From: an uncultured Opitutia bacterium
GTDB taxonomy: Bacteria; Verrucomicrobiota; Verrucomicrobiia; Opitutales; Opitutaceae
Assembly: GCA_903902745.1 (NCBI GenBank)
Contig: CAIUWA010000018.1
Span: 62,001 to 126,000, forward strand
Direction of reading: 5' to 3'
Length of the DNA stretch: 64,000 nucleotides
The translations under genes were made by a program, and so were the position numbers. Positions 41,547 to 64,000 of this stretch are shown piece by piece; the first letter of the stretch is position 1; the number at the start of each line of letters is the position of its first letter. The notes under the pieces were generated by a model. The model searched no databases and was not told the DNA's origin. It saw only the letters and a list, made by a program, of their open reading frames with translations.

Positions 41547-42338
41547 TCAGCGCTGCAGGAACGAGGGGATGACAAAAAGGCTGCCGTCGAACTTCTCGTT
41601 CACCGTCACCTTTTCAAAATTCACCGTGACCGAGCGCTCCTTGCCATCGGCCTGCTTGGTCGTGGTGATGACCTTCTTTGGAAAACGGATGCCATCGGCC
41701 ATCAGTTCGCCTTCCTCCCGGATGGAGCCGCCCTTTTCCGTTTCGGTCAGCACCAGCCTGCCGGTGGCTTGGTCAAAGTAGCGGACGAAGGCGATGCCCG
41801 GCTCGTGACGGAAGGCGAGTTTCTGGCAGGCGACCCCGTTCACGGTGGCCTCGCCGAGATCCTCGATGGTGCCGCCGCGCAGCTCGAGGCCCCGGTAGAA
41901 CGAAAGATTTTCCCAGGTGTTGGCCCGGAGCGCCTTGATTTCGATTCCCTTGAGCAGGTCCATGTTCCAGCGCCGGACGTCCTTGGCATCCTGCACCCGG
42001 TGCCAGGCCTCGAAGTTGTCGAGGGCCGTGATCTCGATGCGCTGCTCCACCACGTCGCCCACCTTCTTCTCGGACGTGGCCACGATGCGCTGCTGGTAGG
42101 GTTTCTGAAAGATGATCTCCACCACGGCCTCGACCGGTTTGGGCCCCTCGGGGGTCTCTTCGGTGGTGACCAGCGAGCCGGTGTAATGCACGGATTTCAC
42201 GGCATTGAGCGCGGCATCGGGGCCGAGATAGGCGCGGGCCTTGGCGATGACGGCGGCGGTGTCGCCGCGCGCACTCGCCAGCGCACCCGACAGGGCCAGG
42301 AGGGAAACGAGCAGGAAACGGGGGGTCTGGGTCGTCAT
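41547..42338 (-). CDS. Exported LolA-like outer-membrane lipoprotein-sorting family protein
   Basis: A 263-residue protein with a signal peptide (MTTQTPRFLLVSLLALSGALASARG) and an all-beta body that resembles the LolA/LolB-like lipoprotein-binding fold: AVKSVHYTGSL, FEAWHRVQDAK, YFDQATGRLVLTE and a final strand FVIPSFL. It could carry lipoproteins or lipids in the periplasm, but the family is broad and assignment is by pattern. A relative, truncated, lies at 46708-47157. It is 72 bases downstream of guaA on the same strand. Confidence 0.7.
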   Translation of the reverse strand: MTTQTPRFLLVSLLALSGALASARGDTAAVIAKARAYLGPDAALNAVKSVHYTGSLVTTEETPEGPKPVEAVVEIIFQKPYQQRIVATSEKKVGDVVEQRIEITALDNFEAWHRVQDAKDVRRWNMDLLKGIEIKALRANTWENLSFYRGLELRGGTIEDLGEATVNGVACQKLAFRHEPGIAFVRYFDQATGRLVLTETEKGGSIREEGELMADGIRFPKKVITTTKQADGKERSVTVNFEKVTVNEKFDGSLFVIPSFLQR

Positions 42339-42409
42339 GAAATAAGCGTGTGAGGGGGTGTTTTCATTCTGAAAACGCGAGCCGGCATCGCAATGGCAAA
42401 ACTCGTTTC

Positions 42410-43948
42410 CTACTCCCATTCGATGGTGGCGGGCGGCTTGGAGCTGATGTCGAGGACGACCCGGCTGACGCCGCGAACCTCGTTGGTGATGCGGCTGGAG
42501 ATTTTCTGCAGCAAGTCGTGCGGCAGCTTCGCCCAGTCGGCGGTCATGGCGTCGATGCTCTCCACGATGCGCAGGGCGATGACGAAATCGTAGGTGCGCT
42601 CGTCGCCGAACACGCCGACGGTGCGGACCGGCAGAAAGACGGCGAACGACTGCCACACCTTGTAGTAGTAACCCGAGGCCATCATCTCGTCCTGCAGGAC
42701 GGCGTCGGCGTTGCGGAGGATCTCCAGCTTTTCGGCGGTGATGTCGCCCATCACGCGCACCCCGAGACCGGGACCCGGGAACGGCTGGCGCCAGACAACC
42801 TCCTTGGGGAGGCCGAGCGCGGCGCCGACGGCGCGCACCTCATCCTTGAAGAGCTCGCGCAGAGGCTCGACCAGCTTGAGCTTCATCCGCGCGGGCAGGC
42901 CGCCGACGTTGTGGTGGGTCTTGATGAGCGACGCGGGATTATTGCCGATCGAGACGCTCTCAATGACGTCCGGATAGAGCGTGCCCTGCCCGAGAAAGTC
43001 GGCGTGACCAATGGACTTGAGGGATTTTTCGAACACGGCGACGAAGGTGCGACCGATGATTTTGCGTTTCTTTTCCGGCTCGGTGACACCCTTCAGCCGG
43101 CGCAGGAACAGCGCCGATGCATCCACGACCCGCAGGTCGATCTTGAAGTTCCGTTTATAGAGCGACTCGACGTAGGCGCGCTCGCCCTTCCGCAACAGGC
43201 CGTTGTCCACGAACACGCAGGTGAGCTGCTTGCCGATGGCCTTGTGCAGCAGCGCCGCGGCCACCGAGGAATCCACACCGCCGGAGAGCCCGAGGAGGAC
43301 GCGCGACTTGCCCACCTTTGCGCGGATGTCCGCCACGGTCTGCGCGATGAAATCGCGCGTGGTCCAGTCCTGCTTCGCCCGGCAGACGCCGAGGAGGAAA
43401 TTGCGGATCATGTCCACCCCGCGCTCGGTGTGAAACACCTCGGGATGGAACTGGATGCCGTAAAAGCCGCGCTTCGTGTCCTCGATGGCAGCGAAGAGCG
43501 AATTTTCCGAAGTCCCGATGGCGGCGAACCCGGGAGGGAGCTTCGTCAGTTTGTCGCCGTGTGAATTCCAGACCCGCAGCTTGCGCGGGAGTTTGGCGAA
43601 GAGCTTGCCGGGTTTTCTGATCGTGAGATGGCCGTGGCCATATTCGCGCGCCTTGCTGTGGGCAACATGGCCGCCGAGAAAATGGCCCATCAACTGGACG
43701 CCATAGCAAATGCCGAGCACCGGCACGCCCAGCTCGAAAATGGCGGGATCCGGGTGCGGGGCGGTCTTCGCGTATACGCTCTGCGGGCCGCCGGAGAGGA
43801 TGATGCCGACGACGCCGTCCGCGCGGAGCTTCGCGGCGGGCGTGGCGAAGTGGTAGATCTTCGAGTAAACCTGACACTCGCGGATGCGGCGCGCGATGAC
43901 CTGGGTGAGCTGGGAACCGAAGTCTAGGACGGCGATGGTCTGTGGCAT
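42410..43948 (-). CDS. guaA: GMP synthase (glutamine-hydrolysing)
   Basis: A 512-residue two-domain enzyme that converts XMP to GMP. The glutaminase domain has [16 protein letters not shown] (nucleophile Cys) and [15 protein letters not shown]; the ATP-pyrophosphatase domain has [16 protein letters not shown], and the dimerisation domain ends [17 protein letters not shown]. The ATG giving [13 protein letters not shown] is the family start. A 334-base gene-free stretch lies upstream. Confidence 0.97.
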
Positions 43949-45146: not shown

Positions 45147-46136
45147 CTACTTCCCGCTGCCCATCATCTGACGGGCCATGTTCATGGTATTCTTCATCTG
45201 GTCCATCCGGCTGGCCTGGGATTGCCGCAGCGCGGCGACCTGCTCCGGGGTAAGGAAGGCGGCGGCACGGTCGGCAATCTGGCTCTGCATCTGTTGCTGG
45301 TGCTGAAAAAAGGCATCGAGGGCCGGGCCGTTCAGCGCGGCCTGCGGATCGTTCGTGGGATCGACAATGTCACGGGAGCTGGCGGCAAAATCCCGGCGCG
45401 TCTCGGTTATCACGGTGGCCAGCGCGCTGGATTGCTCCGGGCTCATCTGCTGGCCGGAGGCGGCGAGACTGGTATTCAAGGCCGTCACCTCGGCGCGCAA
45501 CGGCTGCTGGACGAGATAGTCCTGGTACGTGGCGTAGGCGGCTGGGTCGCTAAAGAAGTCGCGGATCCTGGCGTCGACGGCCGCGTTGGCGTCCTTGATC
45601 TGCTGCCCGACGGCGGCTCGCTCCTCGGGAGTCTGGTTGCCGGACATCATTTTCAGCCCGATTTCCGTCGTGTTCATCTGCTTCTCGGCCAGCAGGCCGA
45701 TGAAACGGGCGCGGTCTTCGGGGGAAAGTCCGAGCTGGGTCATCAAGTCGGCGAACTTGCGCTCCAGGGCCAGCTTCTGGGACCGGGCCATCATATCGCG
45801 CATGGCGGGGTTGTTCATCATGGACGCGGCAAGGGCGCCAAACGAAGGCTTGGCCGGCTCGGCCGGTGCGGGTGCCGGAGCGGGCGGCGGGACAGCGGAG
45901 AGCTGCTTCTCCAACTCGGCGACGCGCGCGCGCAAGGCGTCATTCCGAGCCTGCAAAGCCTCGGCCGGAGCAACCTGAACCGCCTTCGCACGCAGCTGCG
46001 CGACCTCGGTCTCGGCGTTCACGAGACTGCGCCACTGCTGCGCGGCAAAATACGCGAGCCCGGCGCAGCCGAGAGCCAAAATCGCGATCACGATCGGTGC
46101 AGCCTTGGACGATCCAGCCTTGGGGGCGTTGTTCAT
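45147..46136 (-). CDS. Membrane-anchored coiled-coil hypothetical protein, 329 aa
   Basis: I do not recognise a named family. One transmembrane segment (APIVIAILALGCAGLAYFAA) near the N-terminus is followed by a heptad-rich coiled coil (about residues 37-80), a Pro/Ala linker, and a Met/Gln/Ala-rich helical domain (SPEDRARFIGLLAEKQMNTTE; LTPEQVAALRQSQASRMDQM). The phrases LSPEDRARF and LTPEQVAALR resemble helical Spy/CpxP-like motifs, but this is weak. It is likely periplasmic. The function is unknown. Confidence 0.7.
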   Translation of the reverse strand: MNNAPKAGSSKAAPIVIAILALGCAGLAYFAAQQWRSLVNAETEVAQLRAKAVQVAPAEALQARNDALRARVAELEKQLSAVPPPAPAPAPAEPAKPSFGALAASMMNNPAMRDMMARSQKLALERKFADLMTQLGLSPEDRARFIGLLAEKQMNTTEIGLKMMSGNQTPEERAAVGQQIKDANAAVDARIRDFFSDPAAYATYQDYLVQQPLRAEVTALNTSLAASGQQMSPEQSSALATVITETRRDFAASSRDIVDPTNDPQAALNGPALDAFFQHQQQMQSQIADRAAAFLTPEQVAALRQSQASRMDQMKNTMNMARQMMGSGK

Positions 46137-50377: not shown

Positions 50378-51292
50378 ATGAAAACGTCACTCCAAAATCT
50401 GTTGCTCGTCTTTGTTGTCTCTTCTGCCGCCGGCTTGGCGGCGCAGCCGGTCGCCGCCGCCGCGCCTGCCCCCTCCACCCCGCCATCGACGAAGGCGGAC
50501 GCCGTTCCCCCTGGGATCCAATACGCTCCGGCAAGCCAGAAGACACCGCTCGGCACGACGTTTGTCGATTGGGACTCCCTCGCAGTCCGGATCACGCCGT
50601 CGGGGCAATCCCGGTCGGTTTTCGACAATCCCACCCCGGTCCTCGAAAAATTCGAAATGCACATCACGACGCTGAATGGCGGCATGACGTCGCATGCGCC
50701 GCATCACCACGCCTGGGAGGAGATGCTCCTCGTCAAGGAGGGCGAAGTGGAGGTGTCGATCAACGGCAAGCTGCTCCGCGGCGGGCCCGGGGCCTTGATC
50801 TTCTACGCGTCGAACGACGTCCATAACGTTAAGAACGCCTCGGCCGACAAGCCCGCCACTTATTACGTGATGAATTTCTACACGGACCTCGTCCACACCA
50901 CCGCCGACAAGCCGGCCGCCGAGCAGGCCGTGCCAGGCAAGCTCCCTTCCGGCGTCATCGACTGCAACAGCCTGCCGCCGACGCCCACGCCGACCGGCTC
51001 GCGCGTCACCGTGGTCAATTCGCCGACCCTCACCTTCCCCATGCTCGGGAGCCACATCACGACCCTGAATGTGGGGCAAACCACGATGGCCGATATGATC
51101 GACTCGGGTGACGAACTCTTCATCGTCAAATCGGGCACGCTCGAGGTGAAGGTCAACGGCGTCACGGCCCGGATGAAGGAGGGTTCGTTCTTCTATTGCG
51201 CGCCCAACGACAAGCGGACCCTGAAGAACATCGGCACGACGCCGGCCAGCTACCACGTCATCAAGATCTTGTCGGCGAAAAGCCCGAAATAA
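50378..51292 (+). CDS. Exported bicupin protein
   Basis: A 304-residue protein with a signal peptide (MKTSLQNLLLVFVVSSAAGL, cleavage near AAAAP) and two cupin barrels. The first has HAPHHHAWEEMLLVKEGEVE with the metal-binding His cluster and Glu, then FYASNDVHNVKN. The second is weaker (DMIDSGDELFIVKSGTLEV; FYCAPNDKRTLKN) and lacks most of the metal ligands. A role in binding or oxidising a small molecule is possible but unassigned. The gene is solitary; upstream lie 283 gene-free bases with no clear feature. Confidence 0.8.
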   Translation: MKTSLQNLLLVFVVSSAAGLAAQPVAAAAPAPSTPPSTKADAVPPGIQYAPASQKTPLGTTFVDWDSLAVRITPSGQSRSVFDNPTPVLEKFEMHITTLNGGMTSHAPHHHAWEEMLLVKEGEVEVSINGKLLRGGPGALIFYASNDVHNVKNASADKPATYYVMNFYTDLVHTTADKPAAEQAVPGKLPSGVIDCNSLPPTPTPTGSRVTVVNSPTLTFPMLGSHITTLNVGQTTMADMIDSGDELFIVKSGTLEVKVNGVTARMKEGSFFYCAPNDKRTLKNIGTTPASYHVIKILSAKSPK

Positions 51293-51330
51293 GCGGGGCG
51301 GCGATCCTCGGCGGTCATGCCCTACCCCGG

Positions 51331-51364
51331 AAAAAAAACGTGCCGAAGTTTCCTTCGGCGCGTT
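51331..51364 (-). terminator. Intrinsic terminator at the end of the ribosomal operon
   Basis: AACGTGCCGAAG and CTTCGGCGCGTT form a 12-bp stem (one mismatch on one strand) with a 4-base loop, and the minus strand carries a run of eight T after it. It lies 24 bases past the rplQ stop. Confidence 0.85.
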
Positions 51365-51387
51365 GGGCTGGTTAAATAGAACGACCC

Positions 51388-51900
51388 TTAGCTCTTGGCC
51401 TCGGGAGCCGCCTCAGGCGTCGAGGCGACGTCGGGAGTGGCCGGAGCACCGGATTTCACGGCCTTGGCCTGCTTCGCCTTGCCGGACTTGCGGCCCTTCG
51501 ACTTCTTGTAGCCGACGTCGTCAGCCTTCACGAACTCGATGAGGGCGACCTCCGCGGCGTCGCTCAGGCGGGCGCCGAGCTTGTAGATGCGGGTGTAGCC
51601 GCCGTTGCGGTTGACGAACTCCTTGTACTTCTCGTTAAAGAGCAGTGTGACGGCCGTTTCGTCGCGCACGTCGCTGAGCGCAAGGCGGCGGAGGTGGAGG
51701 GCGTCCTTTGGATCGGTCTTGGCCGCGGCCTGCTTGGCCTTGGTGATGACCTTCTCGATGAAGGGACGCAGGGCCTTCGCCTTGGTCAGCGTGGTCTGGA
51801 TGCGACCGTGCGTGATGAGCGAGGTCGCGAGATTGGAGAGCATCGCGCGGCGATGCTCGACGGTGACGCCCAGGGAGGCGTGATGTTTGCTGTGGCGCAT
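51388..51900 (-). CDS. rplQ: 50S ribosomal protein L17
   Basis: A 170-residue protein; MRHSKHHASLGVTVEHRRAM and LITHGRIQTTLTKAKALRPF are the family core. The canonical protein is about 120-130 residues; here a Lys/Ala/Pro-rich tail (KSKGRKSGKAKQAKAVKSG and on) adds about 40. It is the last gene of the operon, separated from rpoA by 200 bases that hold a family C repeat. Confidence 0.95.
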   Translation of the reverse strand: MRHSKHHASLGVTVEHRRAMLSNLATSLITHGRIQTTLTKAKALRPFIEKVITKAKQAAAKTDPKDALHLRRLALSDVRDETAVTLLFNEKYKEFVNRNGGYTRIYKLGARLSDAAEVALIEFVKADDVGYKKSKGRKSGKAKQAKAVKSGAPATPDVASTPEAAPEAKS

Positions 51901-51983
51901 TGGATTTTGGTTTTAAGGGCACCCGATCGGCAATCCGGTCGCAGCGTGGGGCGACAGCGGACGGCGCGAGTGCCAGTTGGTGG

Positions 51984-52083
51984 AAAAATCACAAATCCCA
52001 AAGTCCAAACGCCCAAGACGGCGAGCCGGCAGGCGGAATGGATTGGGATTTATCTGGAGTTTGGCTGGTGGAATTTGGCGTTT
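51984..52083. repeat. Facing-arm repeat, family C (AAATCCCAAA), inside the rpoA-rplQ gap
   Basis: The left arm (51984-52016) reads AAAAATCACAAATCCCAAAG. The right arm (52041-52083) reads GATTGGGATTTATCTGGAGT and on to GGAATTTGGCGTTT, the imperfect reverse complement. The spacer is about 24 bases. It lies within an essential operon whose other junctions are mostly under 110 bases. Confidence 0.75.
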
Positions 52084-52100
52084 CCGGTGCAAGGCACCGG

Positions 52101-53102
52101 TCAGGCTTCCTTCTTGGTGTCGAGGAGGCGCTCGTCGAACTTCATGCCGAGCGAGAGGCCGAGGGCCTCGAGCTTTTCCTTGATCTCGTTGAGCGACTTC
52201 TTGCCGAAATTGCGGTACTTGAGCATCTCCTGCTCGGTCTTCATCGCCAGCTCGCCGACCGTGGTGATGTTGGCGTTGTTGAGGCAGTTCGCGGCGCGAA
52301 CGGAGAGCTCGATCTCGTTGACCGACATGTTGAGGAGCTTGCGGAGCTTGTTCTGCTCCTCGCTGACCTCGCTCTGCTGGCTCTCGAACTCGAAGGCCTC
52401 CTCTGAAACGCGGTCGAACACGTCGAGGTGGTGCTTGAGGATGGAGGCGGACTGCTTGAGGGCGTCGTCGGGCGTGATGCGGCCGTCGGTCCAGATCTCA
52501 AGGATGAGCTTGTCGTAGTCGGTGATCTGGCCGACGCGGGTGTTCTCGACGGTGTACTTGACGAGGCGCACGGGAGAGAAGAGCGAGTCGATCGGGATGA
52601 CGCCGATGGCCTGCTCCTCCTTCTTGTTATCGACGCCAGGGCAGTAGCCGCGGCCGGTCTTGATCTCGATCTCGGCCTCGAACGAACGCTTGCTGTCAAG
52701 GGTGCAGATGAGCTGGTCGGGATTAACGACGGTGATGTTGGCATCGGCCTGGATGTCGCCGGCGGTGACCTTGCCGGTCTTGGTGGCCTTGATGAGGAGC
52801 GAGACGGGCTCGCGCTTCGTGGAGACGAGGAGGACCTTCTTCAGGTTGAGGACGATGTCGGTGACATCCTCGACGACGTTGTCGATGCTCTGGAACTCGT
52901 GGTTCACGCCGTCGATCTTGATCGACGAGATGGCCGCGCCCTCGATGGAGCTGAGGAGCACGCGACGGAGGGAGTTGCCGATGGTATGGCCATAACCGGC
53001 CTCAAAAGGCTCGGCGATGAACTTGGCGTAGGTGGACGAGGAGCCTTCCTCGACCTTGGTGAGCTTGTTGGGGAGTTCGAACTTTCCGAGACGTTTGGGC
53101 AT
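52101..53102 (-). CDS. rpoA: DNA-directed RNA polymerase alpha subunit
   Basis: A 333-residue subunit that nucleates RNA polymerase assembly. The N-terminal domain shows EPFEAGYGHTIGNSLRRVLL, the linker region is Glu-rich, and the C-terminal domain carries two helix-hairpin-helix motifs (IELSVRAANCLNNANITTVG; NFGKKSLNEIKEKLEALGL) that contact UP elements and activators. The start is ATG preceded by CCC, with no Shine-Dalgarno. Confidence 0.97.
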   Translation of the reverse strand: MPKRLGKFELPNKLTKVEEGSSSTYAKFIAEPFEAGYGHTIGNSLRRVLLSSIEGAAISSIKIDGVNHEFQSIDNVVEDVTDIVLNLKKVLLVSTKREPVSLLIKATKTGKVTAGDIQADANITVVNPDQLICTLDSKRSFEAEIEIKTGRGYCPGVDNKKEEQAIGVIPIDSLFSPVRLVKYTVENTRVGQITDYDKLILEIWTDGRITPDDALKQSASILKHHLDVFDRVSEEAFEFESQQSEVSEEQNKLRKLLNMSVNEIELSVRAANCLNNANITTVGELAMKTEQEMLKYRNFGKKSLNEIKEKLEALGLSLGMKFDERLLDTKKEA

Positions 53103-53160
53103 GGGAGGAGGATTTGGCAGTGAGCGGGAAGGTGGGAAATGAAGGACGGAACAAAGCGGA

Positions 53161-53772
53161 TCAGAAGCGCGAGTAGAACTCGACGATGAGCTGTTCATTG
53201 ATGCCCTGCTCCATCTCGTCGCGCGTGGGGAGGCGGACGACGGTGGCCTTGAAGGCCTCGGCGTTGAGGGTGAGCCAGCCCGGAACGGTGCGGATGCGGT
53301 TTTCCTCGAGCTGGCGCGTGGCCATCTGGCGGGAGGCGGGCGTGTTCTTGACCTCGATCTCATCGGCCGGCTGCACGTTGTAGCTGGAGATGTCGACCTT
53401 GTGACCGTTCACGCGGATGTGGCCGTGATTGACGAACTGGCGCGCTGCGGCGCGGGTCTTGGCCAGACCGAGGAGGAAGATGACGCTGTCGAGACGGGTC
53501 TCGAGGAGCTGGAGGAAGCGCTCGCCGGTGACGCCGCGCTCGCGCTTGGCGATCTCGAACACGCGGCGGAACTGGCGCTCGAGCAGACCGTAGATGTAAC
53601 GGAGCTTCTGCTTCTCGTTCAGGCCGACGGCGTATTCCGAGAACTTGCGGCGGGACTTGGGGCCGTGCACGCCCGGGGGATAATTGCGGCGTTCAAACGC
53701 CTTGCCTGAGCCAAGAATGAGCTGGCCGAAGCGCCGGCTGATGCGGGTGGTGGGTCCGAGATAGCGAGCCAT
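53161..53772 (-). CDS. rpsD: 30S ribosomal protein S4
   Basis: A 203-residue primary 16S-binding protein. It starts ARYLGPTTRISRRFGQLI and contains the S4 RNA-binding fold (RLDSVIFLLGLAKTRAAARQ). It lacks the zinc-binding cysteines of the C+ form. The start is ACC-ATG. Confidence 0.96.
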   Translation of the reverse strand: MARYLGPTTRISRRFGQLILGSGKAFERRNYPPGVHGPKSRRKFSEYAVGLNEKQKLRYIYGLLERQFRRVFEIAKRERGVTGERFLQLLETRLDSVIFLLGLAKTRAAARQFVNHGHIRVNGHKVDISSYNVQPADEIEVKNTPASRQMATRQLEENRIRTVPGWLTLNAEAFKATVVRLPTRDEMEQGINEQLIVEFYSRF

Positions 53773-53820
53773 GGTGGTAAGAGGATAAGTGGTGGGTGAC
53801 GGGTGTCAGGCGCGGCGCGA

Positions 53821-54468
53821 TTAGACGCGACGGCGCTTGCGCGGACGGCAGCCGTTGTGCGGGATCGGCGTGACGTCGACGATGGAGGTGATCTCGAGGC
53901 CGATAGCCTGGAGGGCGCGGATGGCGCTGTCGCGGCCAAGGCCGGGGCCGGAGACGCGGATGACGACATCCTTGAGTCCGTGGGACATGGCGTTGCGGGC
54001 GGCATCCTGCGCGACGACCTGCGCGGCGTAGGCGGTGGACTTGCGCGAGCCGCGGAAGTTGCACTTGCCGGCGCTGGACCAGGCGATGACGGCACCCTTG
54101 CCGTCAGTGATGGAGACGATGGTGTTGTTGAACGAGGCGAGGACGTTGACGACCCCGGAGGTGACGTTCTTGGAGCCCTTGGCCTTGCGGACCTTGATGG
54201 TGCCCAGCTCCTCCTTGAGGAGATCCTCGGCGGTGGGCTGCTTGGCGACGCCGCCAATCATCTCGACCGGCTTGTCGGAGGCCGGCTTGGGGGCGGCCTC
54301 GACCGGCGTACCGGAGGCAGCAGCAGCGGCAGCGTCGGCGGCAGCCTTGAGGCCACGGGCCTTCTTTTCGGCGGGCGTCGCAGCGACGGCGGTTTCCGTG
54401 CCGGCGGGAGCGGGCGCAGCGGCCTTGGGGGCCTTTTCTTTTTTCGGAGCGGACTTTTCTTCGGCCAT
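53821..54468 (-). CDS. rpsK: 30S ribosomal protein S11 with long N-terminal extension
   Basis: A 215-residue protein. The S11 core begins near residue 90 ([20 protein letters not shown]) and ends [11 protein letters not shown]. The first 85 residues are an Ala/Lys/Pro/Glu-rich tail that canonical S11 (about 130 residues) lacks. An internal Met at residue 69 ([15 protein letters not shown]) could be an alternative start. The annotated start is ACC-ATG. Confidence 0.93.
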
Positions 54469-54480
54469 GGTGGTAAGGGA

Positions 54481-54861
54481 TTAAACTTCTTTGGCCTTCG
54501 TGACACCAACGGTCTTGCGCGGGCCCTTGCGGGTACGGGCGTTGGTGCTGGTGCGTTGGCCGCGGACGGGCAGGCTGCGACGATGGCGGATGCCGCGGTA
54601 GCAGTTGATCGCCTGCAGGCGCTTCAAGTTGGCGGCGATCTCACGGCGGAGGTCGCCCTCGAGCACCCATTTGTGCTCCGTGATGAGATGGAGGATCTTG
54701 TTGAGCTGCTCCTCCGTGAGGTCCTGCGCCCGCATGTTCGGGTTGAGACCGGCTTCCTTCACGAGGAAGTCAGCCCGGGTGGGACCGATGCCGTTGATAT
54801 AACGGAGGGAGTACGCGACTTTCTTTTTCGCGGGGATTTCTACACCGAGGAGACGAGGCAT
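54481..54861 (-). CDS. rpsM: 30S ribosomal protein S13
   Basis: A 126-residue subunit-bridge protein. [20 protein letters not shown] and [20 protein letters not shown] are typical. It is separated from map by 71 bases, too short for rpmJ or infA, which usually lie between. Confidence 0.96.
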
Positions 54862-54932
54862 GTTGGATTAGGTTGAGATGAGAAGGTTGGAAGTTGGAAA
54901 AAAGTGAGGGAGAAAAATAAAGGGAGAAAAAA

Positions 54933-55730
54933 TCAGGTGGCTGTGGCGTGGACCGGAGCAAGGATCGGGCGCGGGATGGTGAGGATCTCGGGTCCCTTCT
55001 CGGTCGTGAGCACGGTGTGTTCGAAGTGGGCGGAGGGTGAACCGTCCGCGGCGACCACGGTCCAGCCATCGGAGAGCATCTTGGTCCGGTAACCACCAAG
55101 GTTTACCATGGGTTCAATCGCGAGCGTCATGCCGGCCTTGATCCGGTCACCTGAATTTCGGCGGCCGAAGTTGGGAATCTGCGGCTCCTCGTGCATTGAG
55201 AGACCGACCCCATGGCCCACCATGTCGCGGACGACTCCGTAACCGTGACCTTCGACGTGTCGCTGGATCGCGCTGGAGATGTCGCCGATCCGATGACCCA
55301 CCCGGGCCTCAGCGAGACCAAGGCGGAGCGCTTCCTCCGTTACCCGCAGCAATTGCTGGATGGCCGGGGCGATCAGCCCGACGGGGACGGTGACGGCGTT
55401 GTCGCCAATGTAGCCCTCGTGCTCGACGACAATGTCGAGCGAGACGATGTCGCCATCACGCAGAATGCGCCGGAACGATGGAATGCCGTGAACGACCTCC
55501 TCATTGACCGAGATGCAGGTATGAGCCGGATAGCGACGCGAACCGATCTGGTAGCCGTAACAGGCGCTGCGGGCGCCGTGACGGGCGATGGCCGCGCGGC
55601 CTGCCTCCTCCAGATCCTGGGTGCTGATGCCGGGCCGGACGAGCGCCTTCAGTTCCTGAAGGACGTTCGCCGCAATCGCACACGACTCGCGCATGTGCGT
55701 GATCTGCCGGTCATTCTTGATCGGAATCAT
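54933..55730 (-). CDS. map: Methionine aminopeptidase
   Basis: A 265-residue type I enzyme that removes the initiator methionine. Five metal ligands are represented by SLDIVVEHEGYIGDNA, VGHGVGLSMHEEPQIPNFG and AIEPMVNLGGY. The ATG giving MIPIKNDRQI overlaps the stop of the upstream gene by four bases (ATGA), so translation is probably coupled. Placement after the adk slot is typical of spc-type operons. Confidence 0.96.
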   Translation of the reverse strand: MIPIKNDRQITHMRESCAIAANVLQELKALVRPGISTQDLEEAGRAAIARHGARSACYGYQIGSRRYPAHTCISVNEEVVHGIPSFRRILRDGDIVSLDIVVEHEGYIGDNAVTVPVGLIAPAIQQLLRVTEEALRLGLAEARVGHRIGDISSAIQRHVEGHGYGVVRDMVGHGVGLSMHEEPQIPNFGRRNSGDRIKAGMTLAIEPMVNLGGYRTKMLSDGWTVVAADGSPSAHFEHTVLTTEKGPEILTIPRPILAPVHATAT

Positions 55731-56164
55731 GCAGCGCGGTCGCAATCGGCCGCCTCGAAAAGGAGGCCGAGCGTGCGGTAGTGCTGGACGACGGGCGCGA
55801 GCGCCGGAGTGGCGCTGCCGGCAAAAACGGCGCTGAGCGCCTCATCCCGGGCATCGAGCCATTCGTCAAACACCATGGCCTGGAGCAGCGTAGCCGGGAA
55901 GTCCGTGAGGACGAATCCCGCATCAGGTTTGCGCGTGAAGAACCACCGGCGCAAAGGCGCGAGGGCGGCTTCATCAGCCGCGCCAGAGGCGCGGCGACGC
56001 GAAATCTCCCCCCGCATCAAGCCGGTGGGAGAGACGTGCTCTAAATTCAAAGAACGCACCTGGTTTTTGACAGTTTCCGGCAGGGAATCCGCAGAACCGA
56101 GGATAAGGAGCTTCGTTTTGGCGGAGACGCCGAAACGAGAAAAGAGGTCGTTGATGGCTGCCAT
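55727..56164 (-). CDS. Adenylate-kinase-like protein without P-loop (degenerate Adk in the adk slot)
   Basis: A 145-residue protein at the place where adk lies in many bacteria (secY-adk-map). Three blocks align with adenylate kinase: LLILGSADSLPETVK where the P-loop GxPGxGKGTQ should be, VSPTGLMRGEISRRR matching STGDMLR, and GFVLTDFPATLLQAMVFDEW matching GFLLDGFPRT. The P-loop glycines and lysine and the FPR arginine are lost and the lid domain is absent, so catalysis is very unlikely. The frame is intact and coupled to map, arguing for a retained non-catalytic role. GTG at 56170 is an alternative start. Confidence 0.75.
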   Translation of the reverse strand: MAAINDLFSRFGVSAKTKLLILGSADSLPETVKNQVRSLNLEHVSPTGLMRGEISRRRASGAADEAALAPLRRWFFTRKPDAGFVLTDFPATLLQAMVFDEWLDARDEALSAVFAGSATPALAPVVQHYRTLGLLFEAADCDRAA

Positions 56165-56183
56165 TGCCACCGGAGTAAAGAAC

Positions 56184-57695
56184 TTATTTGCCCGCCAAGT
56201 GGCGGAAAAGGGCGATCCCGACGCCGAGGAGCAGCAGCCCGAGCATGGGCAGGGCGACTTTCATGACCGCCTCGGAACTGAGGGCCTCGCCGGTCATACC
56301 GGTCGGGTTGCCGCTTCGGGCGCGAATGCGGCCCTTCTTGAGGAAACCATCGTAGTGCCGCTGGAGCAGGAAAGTTTCGACCTGGCGCATCGTATCGAGG
56401 ATGACGCCGACCGTGATCAACATACCCGTACCGCCAAAGAAAGAGGCGATGCTATACTGGATGTTCATCGAGTTATAGAGCAGGTCAGGCATGACTGCGA
56501 TAACCGTGAGAAAAATCGCACCCGCGAGGGTCAGGCGCGTCATGATGAAGTCCAGGAACTGCGCCGTGGGCTCACCCGGTCGCACGCCGGGGACGTAGCC
56601 GCCATACTTCTTGAGGTCGTCGGCGATCTGGATCGGCTTGAACATGACGGACACCCAGAAATAGCTGAAAAACATGATCAGCATGGTGTAGAGCACATAG
56701 TAGCTCCAGTGACCGCGCGCCAAGGCGTTGGAAAAATCGATGAGATACTTCTGGTTAAAATAAGCGCCGACATAGGACAAAATCTGCTGCGGAAAAAGCA
56801 GAATGGCCTGGCCAAAGATGACGGGCATGACGCCGGAGTAATTGACCTTGAGCGGCAGGAACGAGCTCTGGCCACCCATGACCTTGTTGCCGACAACACG
56901 CTTAGCGTACTGCACGGGAATCTTGCGCTGCCCCTGCACAACCATGATGACGCCCATGGTCACGGCAAAAAAGAGGAGGATCATCACCGCAGCCTGCGGC
57001 AGGCCCATGCTCGCCCCCGTGCCGACGGGCCGGACAAACATATAATAGGTGTCGCGGGCGGCGCTGGGAATACGGGACAGGATGCCGACGGTGATGAGCA
57101 GCGACACGCCGTTGCCAATACCGCGCTGCGTGATCTGCTCACCGAGCCACATCATCAGCATCGTGCCGGCAGTCATGATCAACACGGACTGGGAAATGAA
57201 CCAGAAGCCAGGATCCATCACGATGGCGCCATACTTGTTGATGTCGTAGCCATGCAGGGCGGGCAGCTTGCCAGGATTTTCCAGGGCCAAAATCGTGATT
57301 GTGCCCTGGACCAGACAGATGAGCACGGTCGCGTAACGCGTGTACTGGGTGAGCTTCTGCCGGCCGACGTCGCCCTCCTGCTGGAGGCGGCTGAGCGCGG
57401 GGACCACCGCGGTCATGAGCTGGAAGATGATGGACGCACTGATGTACGGCATGATGCCGAGGGCTCCGATCGCGCCGTTCGAGAGCGCGCCGCCCGTGAA
57501 CATATTGTACATGCCGATCAGCCCGCCGGCCCCGGTCGAGGCCTGATCCCGGATGAAATCCTGAAGGTGCAGCGGATTGATACCCGGCAGCGGAATGGAA
57601 GCCGCGACCCGGGCGATGAACAACATCGCCAGCGTGTAGAAAATCCGGGAGCGCAGCTCGGGGATTTTCAGTGAGTTCGTGAAAGCAGAGAACAC
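56184..57695 (-). CDS. secY: Protein translocase subunit SecY
   Basis: A 503-residue channel protein with ten transmembrane segments, starting at GTG (VFSAFTNSLKIPELRSRIFY). ASIPLPGIN is the conserved first periplasmic turn region, and YAKRVVGNKVMGGQSSFLPL and MPVIFGQAI are core signatures. It is longer than usual (about 440) owing to extended loops and a C-terminal hydrophobic tail. Its partner secA lies at 19666. Confidence 0.97.
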   Translation of the reverse strand: MFSAFTNSLKIPELRSRIFYTLAMLFIARVAASIPLPGINPLHLQDFIRDQASTGAGGLIGMYNMFTGGALSNGAIGALGIMPYISASIIFQLMTAVVPALSRLQQEGDVGRQKLTQYTRYATVLICLVQGTITILALENPGKLPALHGYDINKYGAIVMDPGFWFISQSVLIMTAGTMLMMWLGEQITQRGIGNGVSLLITVGILSRIPSAARDTYYMFVRPVGTGASMGLPQAAVMILLFFAVTMGVIMVVQGQRKIPVQYAKRVVGNKVMGGQSSFLPLKVNYSGVMPVIFGQAILLFPQQILSYVGAYFNQKYLIDFSNALARGHWSYYVLYTMLIMFFSYFWVSVMFKPIQIADDLKKYGGYVPGVRPGEPTAQFLDFIMTRLTLAGAIFLTVIAVMPDLLYNSMNIQYSIASFFGGTGMLITVGVILDTMRQVETFLLQRHYDGFLKKGRIRARSGNPTGMTGEALSSEAVMKVALPMLGLLLLGVGIALFRHLAGK

Positions 57696-57727
57696 AGTGG
57701 TAAAAGTGCGGGGTAAGAAAGGACGCC

Positions 57728-58174
57728 TCAGGCCACAATGGCCTGGCCGCCGGCCTTCTCGATCTTGGCCTTGGCCGACTCGGAGAACTTGGCGGCGGTG
57801 ACCTTGAAGGCACGGCCGATTTCACCGTCACCCAAAATCTTGACGAGCTTCTCACCCTTGCGGATCAAGCCGCTGGCCGCGAGAACCTCGGCGTTGACGT
57901 CTGTGACCTTGGCGTCAAGCGACGCGAGGTCGCCAACATTGAGGACAGCGATCTCGGTGCGATGCTCGTAATTGTTGAAGCCACGGTGCGGGAGCTTGCG
58001 GTAAAGGGGCATCTGGCCGCCCTCGAAGCCGGGGCGGATGCTGCTGCCGGAACGGGCCGACTGGCCCTTGCCGCCGCGGCCGCTGGTCTTGCCGTGGCCG
58101 CCGCCTTCGCCGCAACCGACGCGTTTCTTGCGGTGCACAGCACCGGCTACGTTCTTGAGTTCGTGAAGTTTCAT
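57728..58174 (-). CDS. rplO: 50S ribosomal protein L15
   Basis: A 148-residue protein; MKLHELKNVAGAVHRKKRVG and the Gly-rich GCGEGGGHGKTSGRGGKGQS are typical. Only 66 bases separate it from rpsE, so rpmD (L30), which normally lies there, is absent. Confidence 0.96.
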   Translation of the reverse strand: MKLHELKNVAGAVHRKKRVGCGEGGGHGKTSGRGGKGQSARSGSSIRPGFEGGQMPLYRKLPHRGFNNYEHRTEIAVLNVGDLASLDAKVTDVNAEVLAASGLIRKGEKLVKILGDGEIGRAFKVTAAKFSESAKAKIEKAGGQAIVA

Positions 58175-58240
58175 GGAGGTTCCTATGAGGCGCCCCACCC
58201 CGCGCACCGCGCGGAGCAGGACTCGGATTCTATTGCTTGG

Positions 58241-58864
58241 TTAAACCGTGGTCGCGCGGAGCTTCGTGATGTCCGCGGAAAGGCGGAGCTGCAGGAGCGC
58301 GTTGACCGTCGCATTGACGACAGCGATATGGTTGTTCGATCCCATCGACTTGGTGAGAACGTTCTTCACGCCCGCCGCCTCGAGCACGGCACGGACGCCA
58401 CCACCGGCGATGAGGCCAGTGCCGGGCGAAGCAGGCTTGAGGAGCACGCGGCCGCCATCGTAGACGCCGAGGACATCATGGGGGATGGTGTCACCCTTGA
58501 GCTTGACGTGCACCATGTGCTTGTGGGCGTGGGCGGTGCTTTTCTTGATGGCATCGGGCACTTCGTTGGCCTTGCCGTAGCCGACGCCGATGTTGCCCCG
58601 CTGGTCGCCGACGACGGCGAGGGCGGAAAAGCTGAAGCGGCGGCCACCCTTGACCACCTTGGCGCAGCGGTTGATGAAGACCACCTTTTCGACCATGGCG
58701 GGCGAGCCGTCGGCATTGGGCGGGGCGGGCTTGTTGCGGTCGTCGCGGCGAAACTCACGCCGCGGGGCGCGATGGGGACGCTCGGAGGTGCGCTCCGGTG
58801 CAGCCGCGGGCGCGGGGGTGACGGGAGCGGACTCGGGGGCGGGAGAAACGGTTTCAGTGCTCAT
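58241..58864 (-). CDS. rpsE: 30S ribosomal protein S5 with N-terminal extension
   Basis: A 207-residue protein. The S5 core begins near residue 55 ([20 protein letters not shown]), with the S5 signature [15 protein letters not shown] and FGVGYGKA-like [14 protein letters not shown]. About 50 extra Pro/Ala/Arg-rich residues precede it. The start is CCT-ATG. Confidence 0.95.
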
Positions 58865-58873
58865 AGGCGATGG

Positions 58874-59236
58874 TTAGAATGCGAGTCCACCCTCACGGGC
58901 GGCGTCGGCGAAGGCTTTGACCTTGCCGTGGTAGAGGGCGCCGTTGCGGTCGAAGACGACGGCGGCGATGCCGGCGGCCTTGGCCTTGGAGGCAAAGGCC
59001 ACACCGAGCGCCTTGGCGCCGGCGAGATTGGCCTTGAGCTTCTGCTTGCGCAGCGACGGATCGAGGGTGCCGAGAAACACCAGCGTGGCGCCGGCGTCGT
59101 CGTTGACGGCCTGCGCGTAGATGTGCTTCGTGCTGAACTTGACGCTCAGGCGCGGGCGAACGGCGGTGCCGTTGACCTTCTTGCGGATGCGCCAGCGGCG
59201 TTTCTGGAGGAGACTGGCTTTGCGAATGGTATTCAC
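58874..59236 (-). CDS. rplR: 50S ribosomal protein L18
   Basis: A 120-residue 5S-rRNA-binding protein starting at [23 protein letters not shown] and [20 protein letters not shown] are family signatures. Confidence 0.96.
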
Positions 59237-59268
59237 AGGGAGTTTTAAATTTGAGTCCTGAAACTCGG

Positions 59269-59808
59269 TTAGGCGACGGTCTTGCCTTCCTTGCGGCGGA
59301 CGCGTTCGCCGACGATGCGGACGCCCTTGCCCTTGTAAGGCTCCGGCGGATAGTAACTGCGGATCTCGGCGGTGACGGCACCGACCAACTGCTTGTCGGC
59401 CCCCTCAACCTTGAGCTTGGTCTGCTCAGTGACGGTGATCTTGATGCCCTCGGGGATATCCATCAGGATCGGATGCGAATAGCCCAGCGCGAGGTCGAGC
59501 TGCTTGCCCTTGAGGTTGGCCTTGAAGCCGACGCCCTGGATCTCGAGCTCCTTGAAGTAGCCGACGGACACGCCCTTCACCATGCCGGCGATGACCGAGC
59601 GGACGGTGCCGTACATCGCCTTGGCAAAGCGGCTGGTGTCCTCGGAGGGGGCGACGATGACCTTCTTGTCGGCCACGGAAATCTTCACCACCGGCGCGAA
59701 CGTCTTGGTGACTTTGCCCTTGGGGCCCTCGACGTGGACGGTGTGGTCCTTGATGTCGACCTTGACCTTGTCGGGGATGGGAACGGGTTGTTTGCCAATG
59801 CGGCTCAT
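59269..59808 (-). CDS. rplF: 50S ribosomal protein L6
   Basis: A 179-residue protein with the duplicated L6 fold; SRIGKQPVPIPDKVKVDIKD at the start and YYPPEPYKGKGVRIVGERVR near the end are diagnostic. The longer frame adds seven codons that overlap rpsH and is not used. The start is ACC-ATG. Confidence 0.96.
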   Translation of the reverse strand: MSRIGKQPVPIPDKVKVDIKDHTVHVEGPKGKVTKTFAPVVKISVADKKVIVAPSEDTSRFAKAMYGTVRSVIAGMVKGVSVGYFKELEIQGVGFKANLKGKQLDLALGYSHPILMDIPEGIKITVTEQTKLKVEGADKQLVGAVTAEIRSYYPPEPYKGKGVRIVGERVRRKEGKTVA

Positions 59809-59822
59809 GGTGGGTGGCGGGT

Positions 59823-60215
59823 TTACCAAACGTTGCAGACGAGTTCGCCACCGGCCTTGTTGCGGCGGCAGTCGGAGTCCTTCATCAGGCCCTTCGAGGT
59901 CGAAAGGATGCTGATGCCAAGGCCGTTGAGCACGCGGGGAATCTCGGTGTAGCGCATGTAGAGACGGCGGCCCGGCGTGGAAACACGGGTGAGGCCGGTG
60001 ATGGCCGGCGCGCCGTCGACATACTTCATTTTCACCTCAAGGGTCTTGTGGCCCTTGGCATCGACGCCGTTGGCGTGACCGGCCACATAGCCCTCGGTCG
60101 TGAGGATGGCGGCGAGGCCTTCCTTGAGATTGGAGTGCGGGATGATACACACTGCAAGGCGCGCCTTGCTGGCGTTGCGCAGGCGCGTCAGGAAATCACT
60201 GATCGGGTCGGTCAT
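59823..60215 (-). CDS. rpsH: 30S ribosomal protein S8
   Basis: A 130-residue 16S-binding protein: MTDPISDFLTRLRNASKARL and STSKGLMKDSDCRRNKAGGE. Its stop is 14 bases from the rplF start. The start is ACC-ATG. Confidence 0.96.
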   Translation of the reverse strand: MTDPISDFLTRLRNASKARLAVCIIPHSNLKEGLAAILTTEGYVAGHANGVDAKGHKTLEVKMKYVDGAPAITGLTRVSTPGRRLYMRYTEIPRVLNGLGISILSTSKGLMKDSDCRRNKAGGELVCNVW

Positions 60216-60292
60216 GGTGGATGTTTTTTAGGAGTGGCCGTGGGTCATATCCGATGCGCCGGAAGCGCATAAACCCCCGCGGCCGGGAAATG

Positions 60293-60598
60293 TTACCAGG
60301 AGGATTTGATCACGCCGGGAATCTTCCCGTTGAGCGCGAGTTCGCGGAACTGGATACGCGAGACCCCAAACTTGCCGATGAAGCCGCGCGGGCGGCCGCT
60401 CATCGAGCAGCGGTTGCGGATGCGCGTGGGCGAGGAGTTGCGCGGCAGCTTCTGCAGCTTCTTCTGCGCGGAGTAAAACTCCTCGTCGGACGTGGCCGGA
60501 TTGATGAGGATGGCCTTCAGTTCGGCGCGCTTCGCCTTGTATTTATCGCTGAGCTTGATGCGCTTTTTGTTACGCTCGATGGCAGAGGTCTTGGGCAT
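60293..60598 (-). CDS. rpsN: 30S ribosomal protein S14 (zinc-independent long form)
   Basis: A 101-residue protein; [20 protein letters not shown] is the S14 core. It has only one cysteine there and lacks the CxxC pairs of the short zinc form, so it is the long C- type. The start is ACC-ATG. Confidence 0.96.
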
Positions 60599-60616
60599 GG
60601 TGCGGAAGGTTCGGGT

Positions 60617-61198
60617 TTAGGCGGCGTTGGTCTTGGGAGCGGCGGTGGGCTCAGTCCGGCGGAAGGGCATGCCGAGCGCCTTGAGCAGCTCGCGTCCTTC
60701 GTCGTCGGAATCGGCGGTCGTGACGATGGTGAGGTCGAGGCCCATGGTCTTCTTGACGTTTTCCAGGGTGATCTCGGGGAAAATGGCAAAGTCAGTGATA
60801 CCGAGGTTGTAGTTGCCCTGGCCGTCGAACTTCGGGGAAACGCCGCGAAAGTCACGGATGGTGGGCAGGGCCACAGCCAGCAGGCGGTAGAGAAACTCCC
60901 ACATGGCGTCGCCGCGAAGCGTGACGTGGCAGCCGACGATCTGATTCGGCTTGAGCTTGAAATTCGATATGGCCTTGCGGGTCTTCGCAAGGACGGGCTT
61001 CTGGCCGGCAATGATGGCCATGTCGCGCGCGGTGTCGGCGATCTGGTTCTTGTCGGCCTCGGCATCGATGCCGGTGTTCAGGTTGATCTTCACCAGCCGG
61101 GGCACCTCGTGCTTGTTCTTGTAGCCGCGGCTCTGCACCAGCGCAGGGACAACCTGCTCGATGTAGAGTTTTTTAAGGACGGGAGTGTAACTGCTCAT
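60617..61198 (-). CDS. rplE: 50S ribosomal protein L5
   Basis: A 193-residue 5S-rRNA-binding protein. VPRLVKINLNTGIDAEADKN and GQKPVLAKTRKAISNFKLK are typical. A 107-base gap without a gene separates it from rplX. Confidence 0.96.
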   Translation of the reverse strand: MSSYTPVLKKLYIEQVVPALVQSRGYKNKHEVPRLVKINLNTGIDAEADKNQIADTARDMAIIAGQKPVLAKTRKAISNFKLKPNQIVGCHVTLRGDAMWEFLYRLLAVALPTIRDFRGVSPKFDGQGNYNLGITDFAIFPEITLENVKKTMGLDLTIVTTADSDDEGRELLKALGMPFRRTEPTAAPKTNAA

Positions 61199-61305
61199 TT
61201 TAAGGGCGGCCGGGTTTGCGGTCCGGAGGCGTTGAGAGTGGTTAAGAGAGTGGGAAAAGGTTCAGTAACGCAGGCGGTGGACGGGATTGGCAAGCGCGCA
61301 GTGGC

Positions 61306-61581
61306 TCAGGCCGTGGCCGGGGCCGGCTTCCGGCGTTTGCTCGCGTCGAACACGGTCTGGAGCATGAGGTTGGAGACGTGCACGGAGCCTTCGCGCTCGG
61401 CAATGGTGCCCTGCGGATGCTCCTGGGACTTCTTGAGGTGGCGCTTGATCATGGCCACGCCCTCGACGCGGACGCGCTGCTTGGCCGCGAGGATCTCGAG
61501 GACCTTGCCCGACTTGCCCTTCTGGGAGCCGGCGATGACAACGACGACGTCGTTGCGTTTGATATGAAATTTCTGGGCCAT
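61306..61581 (-). CDS. rplX: 50S ribosomal protein L24
   Basis: A 91-residue assembly protein with the KOW motif VVVIAGSQKGKSGKVLEI. It is one of the few genes in the operon with a Shine-Dalgarno (GGAGGT, about 10 bases upstream). It starts two bases after the rplN stop. Confidence 0.95.
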   Translation of the reverse strand: MAQKFHIKRNDVVVVIAGSQKGKSGKVLEILAAKQRVRVEGVAMIKRHLKKSQEHPQGTIAEREGSVHVSNLMLQTVFDASKRRKPAPATA

Positions 61582-61582
61582 G

Positions 61583-61948
61583 TTAGAGAACCTCCGGGGC
61601 GAGCGAAATGATCTTCATGAAGTTCTTCGCACGCAGTTCGCGGGCGACGGGACCGAAGATGCGGGTCCCCTTCGGGTTGTTCGTCGCGTCGATGATGACG
61701 ATCGCATTGCTGTCAAAGCGCAGGTAGCTGCCGTCGTTGCGGCGCACCGCGGCCTTCGTGCGGACGACAACGGCCTTGGCGACCTCGCCCTTCTTCACGG
61801 TGGCGTCGGTGGTGCTTTCCTTGATGTGGACGGTGATGATGTCGCCCACGCCAGCGGTGTCGGTGATCTGGCCTTTACGGCTGATCATCGCGGCACGGCG
61901 GGCGCCAGTGTTGTCGGCGACTTCGAGAATGGAACGCAGTTGGATCAT
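61583..61948 (-). CDS. rplN: 50S ribosomal protein L14
   Basis: A 121-residue protein; [20 protein letters not shown] and [20 protein letters not shown] are diagnostic. A clear Shine-Dalgarno (AGGAGG) lies about 6 bases upstream, unlike most genes in this operon. Confidence 0.96.
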
Positions 61949-61985
61949 GGCGGGCCTCCTGGGAGGTTGGGATTAAAACGACGGA

Positions 61986-62345
61986 TCAGGCCGACGGAGC
62001 GGCCGTGGGAATGGTGGTCTTGGTGGGAACCTGAGCGGCGACGTCCGCCTCGGTGATGGCGACAGCGTCGGTGGTGACGGCGTGCTCGACGACATTGAGG
62101 ACGCGCCAGCGCTTCAGGCGGCTGAGCGGGCGGGTCTCGGTGATCTCGACCTTGTCGCCGACCTTGGTCTCGTTCTTCTCATCATGGACGTGCACGACCG
62201 TCTTGCGATTGATGATCTTGTGGTAGAGCGGGTGCGGCGTCTTGTAAGGGATCGTGACCTTGATGGACTTGTCGCCGGAGCGGCTGGTGACAAAGCCGAT
62301 GATGGTCTTGCGCGTGTTGCGCGAACCGGGAGTGGTGGAGGACAT
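61986..62345 (-). CDS. rpsQ: 30S ribosomal protein S17
   Basis: A 119-residue protein. The core (GFVTSRSGDKSIKVTIPYKT; VGDKVEITETRPLSRLKRWR) is standard, and an Ala/Thr/Val-rich tail of about 35 residues follows. The start is GCC-ATG. Confidence 0.95.
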   Translation of the reverse strand: MSSTTPGSRNTRKTIIGFVTSRSGDKSIKVTIPYKTPHPLYHKIINRKTVVHVHDEKNETKVGDKVEITETRPLSRLKRWRVLNVVEHAVTTDAVAITEADVAAQVPTKTTIPTAAPSA

Positions 62346-62375
62346 GGCGGTGATACGGGTTGGGCCGGGCGCGCG

Positions 62376-62582
62376 TTAGGCGGCCGCAGGCGCTTTCTGG
62401 TTTTTCTCGCGCAGGAGGGTCTCGAGGCGGGCGACGTCCTTGCGGAGCACGCGCAGCTCGTGGGTTTTCTCCACCTGGCCCGTCTGCTTGCGCAGGCGGA
62501 GTTGGAGGAGCTTTTCGCGGGTTTCGCGGAGCTTGGTGGTGATCTCGGCGGGGGCGAGTTCGCGAATTTCTTTCGTGGTCAT
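62376..62582 (-). CDS. rpmC: 50S ribosomal protein L29
   Basis: A 68-residue protein: [20 protein letters not shown] and [20 protein letters not shown]. The longer frame would add an upstream Ser/Pro-rich head and is not used. The start is GCC-ATG. Confidence 0.95.
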
Positions 62583-62613
62583 GGCGGGCAATGCGTTAAA
62601 GGAGAGAAGAGCC

Positions 62614-63036
62614 TCAGACGACCGCGCCCTCACGGGCGATGAACCGGCAGTGGAAGGGCAGTTTGGCGTCGGCGAGGCGGAAGGCCTCCTTGGCGATGGT
62701 GGCGGACACGCCACCAAGCTCGAAAAGCACGGCGCCGGGCTTGATGACGGCGACGTAGTATTCAACCGGGCCCTTGCCCTGCCCCATGCGCACCTCGGCG
62801 GGCTTCTTGGTGACGGGCTTGTGCGGGAAGACGCGGATCCAGAGTTTCCCCTTGCGCTTGAGGTGGCGCGAGATGGTGACGCGCGCGGCCTCGATCTGCT
62901 GGCCGGTCATCGGGCCGCGGGTCAGCGACTGGAGGCCGAATTCACCGAAGGAAAGCGTGTTGCCGCGCTTGGCATTGCCGGCGCGGGAACCCTTCTGGGA
63001 CTTGCGGTATTTGGTGCGGGCGGGAGCGAGAGCCAT
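62614..63036 (-). CDS. rplP: 50S ribosomal protein L16
   Basis: A 140-residue protein. [20 protein letters not shown] and [20 protein letters not shown] are typical; the latter contains the arginine that is hydroxylated in some bacteria. The start is CCC-ATG. Confidence 0.96.
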
Positions 63037-63074
63037 GGGACGTTGTTCCTAGTTTAAGTTCGTGCGACGCGCGA

Positions 63075-63707
63075 TCAGGCGGCGTCGGCCTCTTTTTTGC
63101 AGATCCAGCATTTCACGCCGATCTTGCCGTAAACGGTCTGGGCCTCGGAGAAGCCGTAGTCGATGTTCTCGCGCAGGGTGTGCAGGGGCACGCGGCCCTT
63201 GCGCTGCCACTCGCGGCGGGCGATGTCCGCACCGCCGAGGCGGCCGGAACACTGGATGCGGATGCCCTCGGCACCGAGCGCCATGGCCATCTCAACGGCC
63301 TTCTTCATGGCGCGGCGGAAAGCGATGCGGCGCTCCAACTGGAGCGCGACGTTCTCGGCGACCAACTGGGCCTCGATCTCGGGCTTCTTGACCTCCTGGA
63401 TGTCGAGGAGGATTTCCTTGCCGGTCAGCTTCGCGAGCTCGTCCTTGATCTTCTCGATCTCCTGGCCCTTGCGGCCGATGACGATGCCGGGGCGGGCGGT
63501 GTAGATCTTCACGCGTACGCGGTTGGACGCGCGCTCGATGAAGATGCGCGGCACGGAGGCCTGCTTCAGCTTCTCCATGAGCTTGGTGCGAATCACCTGG
63601 TCCTCGAGCAGCAACTTGGGAAAGTCCTTTTTGGTCGCAAACCAGCGGGACTGCCAGTTGCGGCGGACAGCGAGACGGAAACCGATCGGATTGGTCTTTT
63701 GGCCCAT
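63075..63707 (-). CDS. rpsC: 30S ribosomal protein S3
   Basis: A 210-residue protein with the KH domain ([20 protein letters not shown]) and the C-terminal domain ending near [30 protein letters not shown] is the standard start. It lies eight bases after the rplV stop. Confidence 0.96.
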
Positions 63708-63714
63708 GGGGAAA

Positions 63715-64000
63715 TTAGTTGGAGTTGCCGTCCGAGAGGATGATGCGGATATGGGACATTTTCTTGCGGCGGGGCATCGCGGTACCGCGGGCGCCGGCCT
63801 TGAAACGTTTCAGCACGGGGCCGTTTTCAACCGTCGCGCTCTTCACTGTCAGGCTGTCGGCCGAGAGGTTGTTGTTGTTCTCCGCGTTCGCGATGGCGCT
63901 CTTCAGCGTCTAGGCGATGAGGCGCGCGGACTTGCGCGGGATGAGCGTCAGAAAATCGACGGCCTCCGCGGCCTTGCGGCCCTGGATGGTGCGGACCACT
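63715..64000 (-). CDS. rplV: 50S ribosomal protein L22, partial, with internal in-frame TAG
   Basis: The reading frame enters at the right edge as [20 protein letters not shown] and continues [11 protein letters not shown], then TAG (63910-63912), then [20 protein letters not shown] and on to the normal end ILSDGNSN. Both sides align without gap to the L22 core, where the residue at the TAG is usually lysine (LIAK), so a single AAG-to-TAG change would explain it. L22 is essential, so this is a sequencing error, a disrupted copy, or a read-through or reinitiation case. The N-terminus lies outside the window. Confidence 0.85.

Follow-up and report, generated by a model that had tools for sequence, protein, structure and literature searches.

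The rplV gene of the draft genome G000, coding for the ribosomal protein L22, contains an in-frame TAG that is very probably an error in the assembled consensus and not new biology, because one L22 copy was found in the genome, the sequence downstream of the stop has been constrained, no decoder of UAG was found and no relative examined has the change. The error would consist of a wrong base call, or of a path that was mis-resolved during assembly, in a draft bin with what seems to be sequence of more than one close relative; the rplV of the living organism would be an ordinary one that codes for lysine at codon 49. L22 is essential in laboratory bacteria, and since the TAG, if unsuppressed, would deprive this essential protein of its last 65 residues, we infer that it is lacking from the DNA of the organism itself. 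The TAG is a single-base difference from both congeners compared, and it is absent from every relative examined.

G000 comprises 3,286,904 bases (3.29 Mb) in 52 contigs, with a completeness of 98.18% and a contamination of 1.02%. The window, i.e., the whole stretch of 64,000 nucleotides that was analysed, is C18:62001-126000, and the following features are of concern here:

63075..63707, minus strand: rpsC (S3), which follows rplV in the operon, intact, 210 residues, named by eye from the sequence
63715..64000, minus strand: part of rplV (50S ribosomal protein L22) lying within the window, with a Pfam match, the ATG being outside the window
63910..63912 (C18:125910-125912), minus strand: in-frame TAG, rplV codon 49, AAG in both congeners
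63952..63954, minus strand: rplV codon 35, TTT (F), TAT (Y) in both congeners, the sole other amino-acid difference from the congener G002

The rplV frame consists of 113 codons on the minus strand, of which the TAG is codon 49, and extends from an ATG at coordinate 64056, 56 bases beyond the window end (C18:126056), to a TAA at 63715-63717. As described in the earlier note, the codons across the site read CTC ATC GCC TAG ACG CTG AAG in the assembly. Its descriptions of L22 sequence continuing on both sides and of a normal stop about 65 codons further on are likewise accurate, given that the Pfam profile Ribosomal_L22 (PF00237) runs through the TAG (111.7 bits, positions 2-104 of 104, one TAG inside) and that 64 sense codons lie between TAG and TAA. 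This full-length profile match and the adjoining rpsC, all 210 residues of which are the same as in G002, identify the product as a member of the L22 family. The frame is thus beyond doubt and not a product of chance, because apart from the substitution Y35F the rest of the protein is the G002 protein. A scan of window positions 51000-64000 with the Rfam models gave no match.

With respect to the state of codon 49 in other genomes, both congeners, G001 and G002, have AAG, which bears out the statement in the earlier note that an AAG lysine is usual here and that one substitution, AAG to TAG, suffices. A search of relatives gave an L22 match in 51 of 57 genomes, and among these 51 a stop inside the match occurs in G000 alone, each of the other 50 having exactly one L22 match. 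Of 447 confirmed loci from named genomes, the best 80 come mainly from bins labelled Opitutaceae, Opitutae or Verrucomicrobia, the top match being a contig of an uncultured Opitutaceae bin (CALFNJ010000686.1) that is apparently the G001 contig. By kinship, the source organism is accordingly Opitutaceae-like. In these 80 loci, codon 49 codes for lysine in 80/80 (AAG in 75, AAA in 5), and L22 contains an inner stop in 0/80. Another set of 31 loci has lysine in all 16 loci in which the site was read (two of them by eye); the remaining 15 lie on the opposite strand, and of these G000, G001 and G002 were read separately. The change is therefore confined to one assembly among all genomes compared, each of which belongs to another species, and the lysine in the relatives shows that the stop is both private and derived. 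The earlier note had proposed that AAG in a close relative would mark the TAG as an assembly or sequencing error; AAG is indeed present in both congeners, but on its own this does not prove an error.

A class-wide survey gave an L22 match in 366 of 384 genomes, with no stop inside L22 among the matches listed, which do not include G000. L22 appeared as two profile matches with weak E-values in at least six genomes of this survey (G176, G334, G374, G397, G297 and G401), the first four of which belong to one genus, g138. The two matches could be due to an insertion, a split gene or a frame break, and possibly represent a real peculiarity of g138.

The comparison of rplV with G002 shows 19 synonymous codon differences and two others, namely Y35F and the stop. 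Downstream of codon 49, all 16 differences are synonymous and none is non-synonymous. This pattern shows purifying selection on either side of the stop, and the downstream half has been constrained up to very recent times. Such constraint is in keeping with an error, with an event of very recent date or with efficient read-through, and it argues against an old pseudogene. Y35F is unremarkable, phenylalanine being found at codon 35 in 8 of the 80 relatives (best 80 of 447 loci). In the set of three congeners, two amino-acid-level changes in rplV are private to G000, namely Y35F and the stop; each replaces A by T on the coding strand, and the distance between them is 41 bases.

A second copy of rplV was sought by family and by DNA. 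The L22 family profile gave one match only in the 52-contig draft, the gaps of which such a search leaves uncovered, and a 1,001-base query spanning rplV and rpsC matched G000 at full length only at its own place, the other 36 DNA matches being short or weak (the best comprising 119 bases at 70%). A second copy in the draft was accordingly discarded and is unlikely altogether, with the draft gaps as the part left uncovered, and the suggestion of a pseudogene accompanied by an intact copy elsewhere thus found nothing in the draft to build on. It is extremely improbable that the TAG is real and the copy a pseudogene while an intact rplV resides in an unassembled gap: the division of the draft into 52 contigs would leave room for such a gene, but each of the 50 other matched genomes has exactly one L22, and rplV adjoins rpsC just as it does in G002, with no sign of decay. 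Little more probability can be given to a faithfully reported TAG that is real in a minority of the cells, or to a gene that works in two pieces. In favour of these are the apparent mixture of more than one close relative in the bin and the six genomes with two L22 matches, which could reflect insertions, frame breaks or split genes; yet a cell devoid of a working L22 should not grow to the point of setting the consensus, and as the only in-frame ATG, GTG or TTG codons after the TAG are codons 71, 81, 94 and 100, a restart there would lose most of the middle of the protein. By eye, no convincing ribosome-binding site precedes any of these four codons, and a split L22 with a restart after the TAG was thought unlikely.

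That the TAG is real and read through, be it by a near-cognate tRNA, by an altered release factor 1 or by a suppressor tRNA whose gene lies in a gap of the draft, such that full-length L22 is made at a useful rate, is likewise very unlikely. Each of the 46 tRNA genes found in G000 with the Rfam model was assigned an anticodon by ARAGORN, and none of the 46, all from the assembled sequence, is CUA. Release factor 1 is intact (TIGR00019, 456.7 bits against a cut-off of 423.25, no stop inside) and carries PVT and GGQ, PxT being the RF1 signature. The second release factor, on contig C42, carries SPF and GGQ, as in RF2. Searching G000 for PylS gave no match over the cut-off and two weak ones, the best at 24.5 bits against 178.15, and 13 of the 14 control genomes match as well, one of these over the cut-off. 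A suppressor tRNA, PylS and a loss of RF1 were therefore set aside as unsupported. In favour of read-through, the 16 synonymous and zero non-synonymous differences from G002 past codon 49 might be cited, as might the report in PMC7918605 that in-frame stops which related genomes share and which are under purifying selection are widespread in bacteria; that paper, in turn, counts only stops present in at least two genomes, and the TAG in rplV is present in one. A tRNA gene could also be missing from a draft that is 98.18% complete, given that tRNA-Ile(GAU), tRNA-Ala(UGC) and tRNA-Thr(CGU) were not seen among the 46. The first two of these often reside within the ribosomal RNA operon, and a missing 16S gene and missing tRNAs of this kind are common in short-read bins; 16S was not found in G000 by a weak search that matched in only 9 of the 14 control genomes. 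Two tRNA genes are situated at contig ends, Val GAC at ends of C22 and C46 and Cys GCA at ends of C24 and C39, as if the assembly had been broken at repeated tRNA genes.

Further evidence against read-through comes from the use of TAG in other genes. Among 78 frames (22,291 codons) compared with G002, an internal TAG occurs in rplV only. This comparison was composed of 46 frames with 11,771 codons at coordinates 51.4 to 88.9 kb, seven of which (2,095 codons) lie in a G002-like tail of the contig and say little on the use of TAG, and of 32 frames with 10,520 codons at 0 to 45.3 kb; frames in which the differences from G002 were not concentrated at third codon positions were dropped, and the best of overlapping frames was kept. 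In the 0 to 45.3 kb comparison, TAG terminates five frames in both G000 and G002. With these five shared terminators, and with the internal TAG confined to rplV, TAG is, as judged from the genes compared, an ordinary stop in G000. According to PMC8954436, UAG is the least frequent terminator and is rarest in highly expressed genes. There is only a slim chance that the TAG is genuine and that this Opitutaceae-like species reads UAG at a useful rate in some way that the assembled tRNA genes do not reveal, with L22, an essential and abundant ribosomal protein, produced across the stop. Of the three explanations put forward in the earlier note, suppression or read-through found no support, as neither a tRNA with a CUA anticodon nor, in the 78 frames, another in-frame TAG turned up and RF1 is intact; with no second copy found either, a base-call error is the best of the three.

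The comparison with G002 gave four further in-frame stops in G000, one TAA and three TGA. The TAA at 70053 was rejected as an internal stop, since it precedes the start of rpsG, and so were the TGA codons at 191 and 1562, as both fall in frames that run opposite the open 718-residue frame of the minus strand. The TGA at 45169 lies within a frame of 69 codons with 58% identity to G002. In the reverse comparison, three G000 frames meet a stop in G002 (TAG 916, TGA 12261 and TGA 28339; C56 stretch), the one with TAG 916 being opposite the same 718-residue frame and the other two being near the end and the start of a frame. The frames 79625-80335 and 41547-42656 each gave a second matching piece, indicating a possible shift or a misplaced start. 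The TAG in rplV is the only convincing interruption among the 78 frames; the assembly is thus not generally error-ridden, which counts against the reading as an error.

Of note for the beginning of the window, the open frame on the minus strand at 1-2154 comprises at least 718 residues and runs off the window start; at the DNA level, several other places in G002 match parts of this stretch. Next to it, a minus-strand frame of 814 residues at 2173-4617 contains repeated units with FSPDG and WDA motifs and by eye looks like a WD40-repeat protein.

The state of contig C18 has also to be considered. In bins of 500 bases, its identity to G002 is 84-95% from 66 to 82.5 kb, with one partial bin at 78.5%, and 94-100% from 82.5 kb to the contig end; this G002-like tail is C18:144500-150914, corresponding to window coordinates 82500-88914 and thus situated outside the window. 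Over 0-46 kb of the window, the identity to G002 is 70-86% in longer pieces. The switch takes place in tuf, which has four differences from G002 in its first 840 bases and 34 in its last 348, within a run of 133 identical bases (82681-82813). A second contig of the bin, C45, has its start within this run, at the position equivalent to coordinate 82705, and contains a different version of the locus (C45:1-11568) that is 73-83% identical to the C18 tail and has the gene order of G002; its identity to G002 is only 70-83%, making it more distant than C18 is over the ribosomal genes. Since the identity switches inside tuf where C45 begins, C18 looks chimeric, and a join of two related genomes at the conserved tuf would be the simplest and a likely reading. 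Alternatively, C45 could be a contig of foreign origin and the tail of C18 could stem from a real and recent exchange, in which case the argument for a chimera would fall. In both cases, sequence from more than one close relative seems to be present in the bin, and such mixing would make it possible for wrong bases to enter the consensus.

With a distance of about 18.8 kb from the TAG, the switch in tuf is by itself no explanation for the stop. The possibility that rplV contains a join of its own was considered as well. Synonymous changes private to G000 number zero in codons 1-48 and 12 in codons 50-113, a pattern that is suggestive after the fact; the identities to G002 per 100 bases from 63700 to 64100 are 89-95%, which is ordinary for the region, and this profile has no clear join. 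A join at this place is therefore not claimed.

In comparison with known systems, the TAG in rplV appears to have its closest likeness in the private nonsense errors of draft genomes, as it would share with them the single base, the single genome, the conserved gene under purifying selection and the failure to find a decoder. With the reassignment of UAG, including pyrrolysine, it has in common a UAG inside an essential frame. Such a reassignment needs a decoding tRNA and repeated use of the codon, whereas in G000 neither a decoding tRNA nor repeated use of UAG was seen. The shared read-through stops described in PMC7918605 resemble it in that the stop lies inside a frame still under selection; however, these are stops occurring in at least two genomes, unlike that of rplV. 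The same paper lists four sources of in-frame stops, sequencing errors among them, suggests that such stops are often read through in bacteria and requires at least two genomes in order to exclude sequencing errors, a filter that the TAG in rplV fails because it was found in one genome.

Private single stops in draft genomes hence need to be checked against the reads; C18 has a likely chimeric join in addition. It would be surprising if the stop in this single-copy essential ribosomal gene were real, since it would then mean that a bacterium using the ordinary code reads through UAG efficiently.
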